Virus record (IMG/VR): IMGVR_UViG_3300044960_000037
Span: 1-47,420 of that record
Reading direction: 5' to 3' (one strand)
From: a virus
Length of the DNA: 47,420 nt
The notes under the pieces: model-generated
The model's input: only the letters and a program-made list of their open reading frames with translations
The model's database searches: none
What the model was told of the DNA's origin: nothing
In this document: positions 29,743 to 46,713 of the stretch, piece after piece
Numbering within the stretch: position 1 is the first letter of the stretch
Layout of the letters: each line of letters opens with the position of its first letter
Translations under genes and position numbers: made by a program

Positions 29743-29770
29743 TAGTTATAATTTCTCATGTTGTCAACCA

Positions 29771-29790
29771 CCCCCGACTGAAGTCAGGGG
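29771..29790 (+). repeat. Left-end hairpin of the IS200/IS605-type element
   Basis: CCCCCGACTGAAGTCAGGGG forms an eight-pair hairpin with one mismatch and a small loop. Hairpins of this form mark IS200/IS605 ends and are recognised as single strands by the Y1 transposase TnpA. Confidence 0.75.
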
Positions 29791-29922
29791 CTTGTGAGGA
29801 GTAGGTATGCCAAACCGAAACGAACAGGTTAAACGGGAGACTAGGGTGGCCGAGGTCTGATGGAAAGCGGTTGTGCCAGAACGCTAAGCCGTCTGATTGC
29901 AAGTTTCTGGCTTTAAACTCTT

Positions 29923-29958
29923 GGAGGACGCGGCTCCTCCCCTGTCTAAAGACAGGGG
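29923..29958 (+). repeat. Right-end hairpins of the IS200/IS605-type element
   Basis: Two overlapping hairpins: GGAGGA/TCCTCC (29923-29928 with 29935-29940, six-base loop) and CCCCTGTC/GACAGGGG (29939-29946 with 29951-29958, loop TAAA). They share two bases, so they cannot both form fully. This double hairpin is typical of the 3' end of such elements. Confidence 0.75.
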
Positions 29959-29978
29959 TTTCCGCTGCGTGAATTTTT

Positions 29979-45704: not shown

Positions 45705-46388
45705 TTATATTATGAATAATCGAATACCCCAGACAAAAGTTCTACCGAACATAGTCCATGCAGTTTGAGGTATGTAGAATGAAAATTCTCTCTTAGGGTC
45801 AGATAGATTGATTGAATATATCGATTGACAGATGTTATCTTTCAATAATTCAGAAACTGGTCTATCGCTTAATGCAGGATAGATTTTAGAGTCATAAATC
45901 ATAGTATGATACGTATCCATCATGTCTATACTGTATGGATCTCTTTTATACAAATCAATATTTATAAATTCACAGTTATGCCAAGTATCAACATCTTGGC
46001 CTTTTACCAAGAATAAAAAATTTATGTAACATTTAGTATTTTTAGTCCTCGAGAGGTAAAACTCATGAATAATTGTTTTAAAATTAATAGTTATCTGATG
46101 CTTATCAGTTGGGTCTTGATAGAGATACCATCGGAATAATGTGTTCTTAGTTACATGGTCTGTTATATAATCATCAACAGTTATATTAAATAGATTAGAT
46201 AAAAAATTCTCCCAAGAACTACCAGTTACATTAAGTTCTACAGTAACAAGGTCTGTTAATTTCTCAGACCAACGCTCAAGAGGATGAGAAAATATACTTG
46301 GATATCTGTAATAGATATCTTCAATAAATGTATTAGCAAAATTATTTATCATACTATCGAATATATTTCTAATCATAATTCCATTCAT
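45705..46388 (-). CDS. Unrecognised phage protein of the IP.T-ended family
   Basis: A 227-residue protein. Start choice is uncertain between 46388 and 46376; for 46388 the GGAAG just before it derives from sequence next to the truncated tnpB. The C-terminal part reads DRPVSELLKDN, then EFSFYIPQTAWTMFG and a last Trp strand (VWGIRLFII). It matches the pattern of the neighbouring - strand gene at 44753 and the leftmost proteins. It lies between that gene and the tnpB relic, with a 220-base gap downstream (45485-45704) that holds one AATCGATT motif. Confidence 0.65.
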   Translation of the reverse strand: MNGIMIRNIFDSMINNFANTFIEDIYYRYPSIFSHPLERWSEKLTDLVTVELNVTGSSWENFLSNLFNITVDDYITDHVTKNTLFRWYLYQDPTDKHQITINFKTIIHEFYLSRTKNTKCYINFLFLVKGQDVDTWHNCEFINIDLYKRDPYSIDMMDTYHTMIYDSKIYPALSDRPVSELLKDNICQSIYSINLSDPKREFSFYIPQTAWTMFGRTFVWGIRLFII

Positions 46389-46405
46389 AACTTCCGTTCC
46401 AGAAT

Positions 46406-46615
46406 CTATAATCCTTCCTGTTTCAGCGACCCATAACTCGTAGACCCAGCCAGAAGACCGGTTCCGCTGCCAGAGGAATCTCCACAGGCGTAACTTTCCG
46501 AGGAACTCTCGGTAGAACCCGTTAAATGGGTCAAACCATATGCTCTAAGATTCAGAGCTGTATTCAAGTCTCGATCTGATGTAGGACTAAGTCTGATCTT
46601 ATGTGTTCTTATCAT
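46406..46615 (-). pseudogene. tnpB: Internally deleted TnpB (IS200/IS605 relic)
   Basis: A 69-residue open frame. Residues 1-12 (MIRTHKIRLSPT) match the start of TnpB proteins. The next residues (SDRDLNTALNLRAYG) match the RuvC-III motif near the TnpB C-terminus, with a catalytic-type Asp, and the end (YGSLKQEGL) is the usual TnpB C-terminus. Some 300 residues between, with RuvC-I, RuvC-II and the zinc finger, are missing, yet the frame is intact with an AGAGGAAA site. No cleavage activity is possible. The 3' end of the gene, which in full elements is also the guide-RNA scaffold, is kept. Confidence 0.8.
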
Positions 46616-46713
46616 GAAAGGTTTCCTCTAGTTGATAAAAGTCGTATCTGATCTATCTCCTGTTTCTATATATATATGTTATAAATTATTGTCATTTCTT
46701 GAGTCTTTGAAAA

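Follow-up and report, generated by a model that had tools for sequence, protein, structure and literature searches.

The window analysed here, by which we mean the whole 47,420-nucleotide stretch of viral DNA, very probably contains the right-end remnant of an IS607-type TnpB element, in which an in-frame internal deletion has left a nuclease-dead gene together with a nearly complete reRNA. The relic is a nuclease-less derivative of an IS607 TnpB element, and it is the most reduced nuclease-less IS607 unit that we have seen, with its third stem loop (SL3) nearly gone and no left end. That its RNA is still competent when TnpB is supplied in trans is the less probable of two outcomes; otherwise the locus would be an inert remnant. 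The features on which this view is based are as follows.

46406..46615, minus strand: 69-aa ORF, an internally deleted tnpB (pseudogene), uninterrupted from ATG to TAG
46580..46615, minus strand: TnpB N-terminal codons 1-12 (MIRTHKIRLSPT), from an N-terminal profile score of 22.8 bits
46522..46576, minus strand: TnpB C-terminal segment DRDLN...HLTG with the RuvC-III Asp, 5' of the scaffold, from homology
46394..46521, minus strand: reRNA scaffold of an IS607-type TnpB family, from covariance model R1 (119.4 bits)
46498..46512, minus strand: SL1 hairpin CCGAG(AGUUC)CUCGG, whose loop takes part in a pseudoknot, from the structure alignment
46469..46489, minus strand: invariant bulged motif GCCUGUGGAG...CUCUGGC, from the structure alignment
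46447..46460, minus strand: SL2 hairpin CGGUC(UUCU)GGCUG, from the structure alignment
46401..46414, minus strand: SL3 cut to 14 nt, with at most a weak 5-bp stem, from scaffold comparison
46394..46400, minus strand: right end GGAACGG, from a Thermus empty site
46374..46393, minus strand: predicted guide AAGTTATGAATGGAATTATG, lying over the start codon of the next gene, from its position just past the right end
45705..46388, minus strand: downstream phage gene whose 5' end supplies the guide, from the ORF call

A tnpB gene reduced to its two ends

Residues 14-44 of the 69-aa ORF resemble IS607-type TnpB proteins of Thermus and Rhodothermus plasmids (best E value 1e-6, 77% identity), and the best matches, which concern N- and C-termini only, are annotated as "IS607 family element RNA-guided endonuclease TnpB". 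A preliminary description of this DNA had proposed that the first 12 residues of TnpB are joined to its C-terminus without a frameshift, and had named a chance resemblance of those 12 residues as one finding that would speak against it. Against a profile of 63 TnpB N-termini, MIRTHKIRLSPT scored 22.8 bits and ranked first among 1951 start codons (the second scored 11.9), and none of 200,000 random peptides reached this score. The possibility that these residues are a decayed zinc ribbon, which was raised by an HMM alignment, was rejected, since 38% of random peptides score as well. Because the N-terminal profile score is high and the zinc-ribbon reading is no better than random, both ends of TnpB are real, and they are fused in frame between about codons 12 and 14. 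Searches of the 69 aa against Pfam, NCBIfam and PHROGs gave no significant match, and no serine recombinase gene tnpA was found beside the ORF.

Alignment to ISDra2 TnpB allowed the deletion to be placed and agrees with the earlier proposal that the catalytic core has been lost: the RuvC-I Asp191, the RuvC-II Glu278 and the zinc-ribbon cysteines are missing, and the sole RuvC acidic residue left, one of three, is Asp361, the second D of DRD. Judging from these residues, the relic is nuclease-dead. Of the roughly 420 codons of TnpB, the in-frame deletion would have taken out about 345. Over the 20 codons that separate the deletion from the scaffold, comparison with pVV8 revealed 13 synonymous and 2 nonsynonymous codon changes, a pattern suggesting that the parent tnpB was translated for most of the divergence, so that the internal deletion looks recent. 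A profile made from six TnpB sequences, when run against the whole 47,420-base record in search of a full copy, matched at one place only, the 69-aa ORF (E 5e-20); no second TnpB was found in this record, a linear viral contig that is possibly incomplete.

A nearly complete reRNA scaffold

The 3' ends of seven plasmid elements were aligned with the phage locus, and the conserved blocks extend through the stretch 3' of the DRDLN codons. Covariance model R1, which was built from 11 scaffolds with the phage locus excluded, finds the phage scaffold with 119.4 bits (E 4.1e-35) over model positions 1-167 of 167, and this full-length match substantiates the earlier claim that the 3' end of tnpB overlaps a reRNA scaffold. 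In alignment A3 (12 sequences) 95% of cells are paired, versus 35-53% if the structure is slid by 1-3 columns, and 11 pairs are changed on both sides. In alignment A4 (45 sequences), which was fitted to R1 and is hence biased towards the model, 92.7% of cells are paired, versus 38-48% for slid structures, and there are 27 two-sided pairs. A pseudoknot between the SL1 loop and the last bases before CGG, which is absent from R1, co-varies as GUUC:GAAC, GAUC:GAUC, GCUC:GAGC and GUUU:AAAC. In the phage scaffold, the GAAC of the right end pairs with the SL1 loop GUUC, and the pairs of SL1 (5/5), the pseudoknot (4/4), the motif (6/6) and SL2 (5/5) have all been kept.

The exception is SL3, which is 14 nt long in the phage scaffold versus 25-59 nt in the other complete scaffolds, a range that leaves out two loci: L053, which is not aligned reliably by the model, and L051, in which the SL3 stretch continues into a CRISPR array. 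The phage SL3 is about half the length of the shortest of these others and is AU-rich; because it is both short and AU-rich, it would not be stable in a thermophilic host.

It had also been suggested that the 3' end be folded and compared with known reRNAs. The R1 match and the covarying structure identify the scaffold. Minimum free energy folding was uninformative, with values no better than for shuffled sequence (z of -0.02 for the scaffold and +0.61 for a longer stretch), and an Rfam search, permissive thresholds included, gave no match at the phage element. RAGATH-18 in particular was matched neither at the phage element nor in its full relatives. The scaffold represents a reRNA family that is lacking from Rfam.

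The right end, the guide and the missing left end

The full Thermus-type elements all terminate in GGAACGG, which is followed by unrelated DNA. The right end of the family could be fixed because a site occupied in pVV8 is empty in Thermus thermophilus AA2-2: in AA2-2 the flanks GCGGGG and TCTTCC are joined directly, while in pVV8 they enclose an element that begins with TTGACAACTG and ends with ACGGAACGG. The phage element likewise ends at GGAACGG, and its guide is therefore predicted to run from position 46393 downward. With a length of 20 nt, a value inferred from other TnpBs, the guide covers the ATG at 46388. The preliminary description had placed the start of the gene at 45705-46388 in this flank, and the gene does begin 6 nt past the right end. 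The 47-kb record contains no other site that the guide would match with fewer than 3 mismatches.

The left flanks of the recognisable copies of the family all end in GGG, which is probably the target-adjacent motif of the family. A left end could not be recognised for the phage element by either of two approaches: the nearest GGG on the upstream side lies within another gene, at a distance of 375 nt, and alignment to known left ends scored no better than for shuffled sequence. As no left end with the flanking site of the family was found, the relic has probably lost its mobility. Neither IMG/VR nor the phage records yielded a close relative of the phage, or one of the downstream gene, in which an empty site could be read; the best phage match to the tail sheath was Thermus phage phiLo, with 54% identity. 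phiLo itself contains two tnpB loci near its tail module, of kinds other than the phage relic, and one tnpB is annotated there as two overlapping ORFs (phiLo_144/143), which may reflect a frameshift.

Nuclease-less units elsewhere

A motif scan of IMG/VR yielded 61 loci, 47 of which were confirmed by R1 at an E value of 0.01 or better. The status of tnpB was counted in the 37 viral scaffold loci for which 1240 nt or more of upstream DNA were available: TnpB is full in 24 and partial in three, and ten (eight distinct) retain at most 51 aa of it. Several of these ten have left-end sequence fused directly to the scaffold, and most nuclease-less units retain SL1, the motif and the pseudoknot. Retention of the scaffold may also serve transposition, because the scaffold sits at the right end of the element.

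On contig IMGVR_UViG_3300036768_001232 (G004), a full TnpB with its scaffold occurs alongside a separate copy that lacks the nuclease. Such a pair on one contig, together with the retention of SL1, the motif and the pseudoknot in most of the units, makes it plausible that one TnpB is used in trans by several guides. Two further IS607 units are likewise nuclease-less. Rhodothermus marinus pRMAR01 carries an unannotated one (L015:2369-2660) with a left end, the start of tnpA and a shortened SL3, and IMGVR_UViG_3300014796_000030 carries another (L103:15903-16234) with a left end and the start of tnpA. The L103 unit is inserted at GGGGG in the ARFAYNWG motif of a sibling tnpB, and because of this position its guide is tnpB itself. 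We found no published account of nuclease-less IS607 reRNA units in the literature searched.

The same scaffold type is also present, with 81 bits, next to a TnpB-like gene at L051:2501-4075 (IMGVR_UViG_3300010276_000129), where a CRISPR array of five 30-bp repeats (GTTTACATTCAACTATAGTTGGTACTAAAG) and roughly 36-nt spacers lies directly downstream of the scaffold. The repeat has CUAA at its 3' end, complementary to the SL1 loop GUUAG of this locus; it looks as though the guide half had become separate, and the locus is a candidate for a transposon-to-CRISPR intermediate on a viral contig. tnpB-CRISPR loci have been reported in Thermus Lalka phages (PMC11437467).

A second element in the phage

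A 214-bp element at 29762-29975 has two palindromic ends of the IS200/IS605 type and no ORF. Its 5' stem is HEARO-like (IscB omegaRNA) but stays below threshold, with 15.9 bits versus a cut-off of 83. Matches to its left end were found in unannotated plasmid DNA from Limosilactobacillus and Allochromatium, and matches to its right end in two faecal phages. It had been proposed that the phage holds two relics of RNA-guided systems and no intact nuclease. The latter part is in line with the absence of any other TnpB match in the record; as to the former, it is plausible but unproven that the 29.8-kb element is a second RNA-guided relic, of a different kind from the tnpB relic.

What the relic may still do

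The earlier idea that the element may still make a guide RNA gains from the finding that the scaffold is real and ends exactly where a guide is expected to start: since the scaffold overlaps the 3' end of tnpB and stops where the guide would begin, the relic may indeed still make such an RNA. The RNA lies within a run of genes on the same strand, and readthrough from the upstream gene would produce it. Its binding and trimming would require a TnpB provided in trans, either by the host or by another element, and the resulting complex would cut copies of the phage locus that lack the insertion and carry the GGG target-adjacent motif.

Two versions of the preferred explanation, a nuclease-dead right-end remnant, have to be weighed. 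According to the first, which we consider slightly more likely than not, both the RNA and the peptide are inert and the locus is heading for loss. The loss of the nuclease, the missing left end, the shortened SL3 and the absence of an intact TnpB from the record all agree with this. However, there is no flaw in the pseudoknot or in any other pair, and the terminal GGAACGG was kept exactly despite the adjoining deletion in SL3. According to the second version, which is possible but doubtful, the locus is a functional non-autonomous guide unit under selection that depends on TnpA and TnpB in trans, and the phage-borne reRNA promotes the spread, or prevents the loss, of its own locus. The integrity of the pseudoknot and of every helix except SL3 fits a working guide unit, as do the recurrence of nuclease-less units in viral contigs, nearly all with a scaffold, the joint presence of a full TnpB and a nuclease-less copy on one contig, and the insertion of the L103 unit at a GGG site within a sibling tnpB. 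On the other hand, the deletion looks recent, so the conservation may be mere inheritance; SL3 is very short and no left end was found; and elsewhere the scaffold could have been retained because transposition needs the right end, and not for its function as a guide.

A role as a decoy, in which a guide-like RNA protects the phage from being cut by a host IS607 TnpB by titrating or blocking that enzyme, is improbable, even though those parts of the scaffold to which TnpB is expected to bind are kept and SL3, which adjoins the guide, is shortened. It is hardly credible that the 69-aa product is the small RNA-binding peptide envisaged earlier, and we infer that it does nothing, since, although its frame is open and a plausible ribosome site (AGAGGAAA) precedes the ATG, it has neither the REC and RuvC-I/II regions nor the zinc ribbon, the RNA structure dictates the sequence of its C-terminal half, the N-termini fused in nuclease-less units elsewhere are unrelated, and the synonymous pattern reflects the parent tnpB and not the 69-aa product.

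Returning to the preferred explanation, the remnant indicates that, in this IS607-type TnpB family, loss of the nuclease can leave the guide-RNA half in place, phage genomes included. A covariance model is now available for a reRNA family that Rfam lacks, and the co-varying pseudoknot fixes the boundary of the guide. We only tentatively suggest that there is a recurrent phage class of nuclease-less IS607 units whose guide RNA is the sole working part and whose TnpB comes from elsewhere. If this is true, different elements, or phage and host, would share RNA-guided target cleavage in trans; RNA-guided spread would then be a shared resource, and cheater elements could arise. If the units are inert, the relic is an ordinary transposon remnant.

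Comparison with known systems

The closest counterparts are the IS607-type TnpB elements of Thermus and Rhodothermus plasmids (pVV8, WP_014677633; pRHOM17201), which resemble the relic in the TnpB C-terminus, the scaffold and the GGAACGG right end followed by the guide. Unlike the relic, they have tnpA, a full tnpB, a long SL3 and a left end, in which a flanking GG is followed by TTGACAAC, with a -35/-10 promoter. The units of pRMAR01 and IMGVR_UViG_3300014796_000030 have, like the phage relic, kept the scaffold and lost tnpB, and SL3 is also shortened in the former, to 30 nt. However, both of them keep a left end and the start of tnpA, whereas in the phage relic it is the start of tnpB that is present, and a left end cannot be recognised.

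Protein-less derivatives that keep the element ends or the RNA are familiar from the non-autonomous elements of the IS200/IS605 group, namely the PATEs and the orphan HEARO RNAs, which differ from the phage relic in transposase, ends and RNA family. ISDra2 TnpB (8BF8, 8EXA), the closest natural TnpB with a solved structure, likewise has a reRNA that overlaps the 3' end of tnpB, but ISDra2 is an IS200/IS605 element moved by a Y1 transposase, whereas the phage relic is of the IS607 type. The ISFba1-type IS607 TnpB with its RAGATH-18 reRNA shares with the relic the IS607 origin and a guide located 3' of the scaffold (PMC11061315). Its reRNA lies outside the tnpB reading frame, whereas the scaffold of the phage family overlaps tnpB (PMC11061315). 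The PK2 of ISFba1, which is formed by a hairpin loop and the last scaffold bases and whose mutation impaired complex formation, resembles the pseudoknot of the phage family (PMC11061315).
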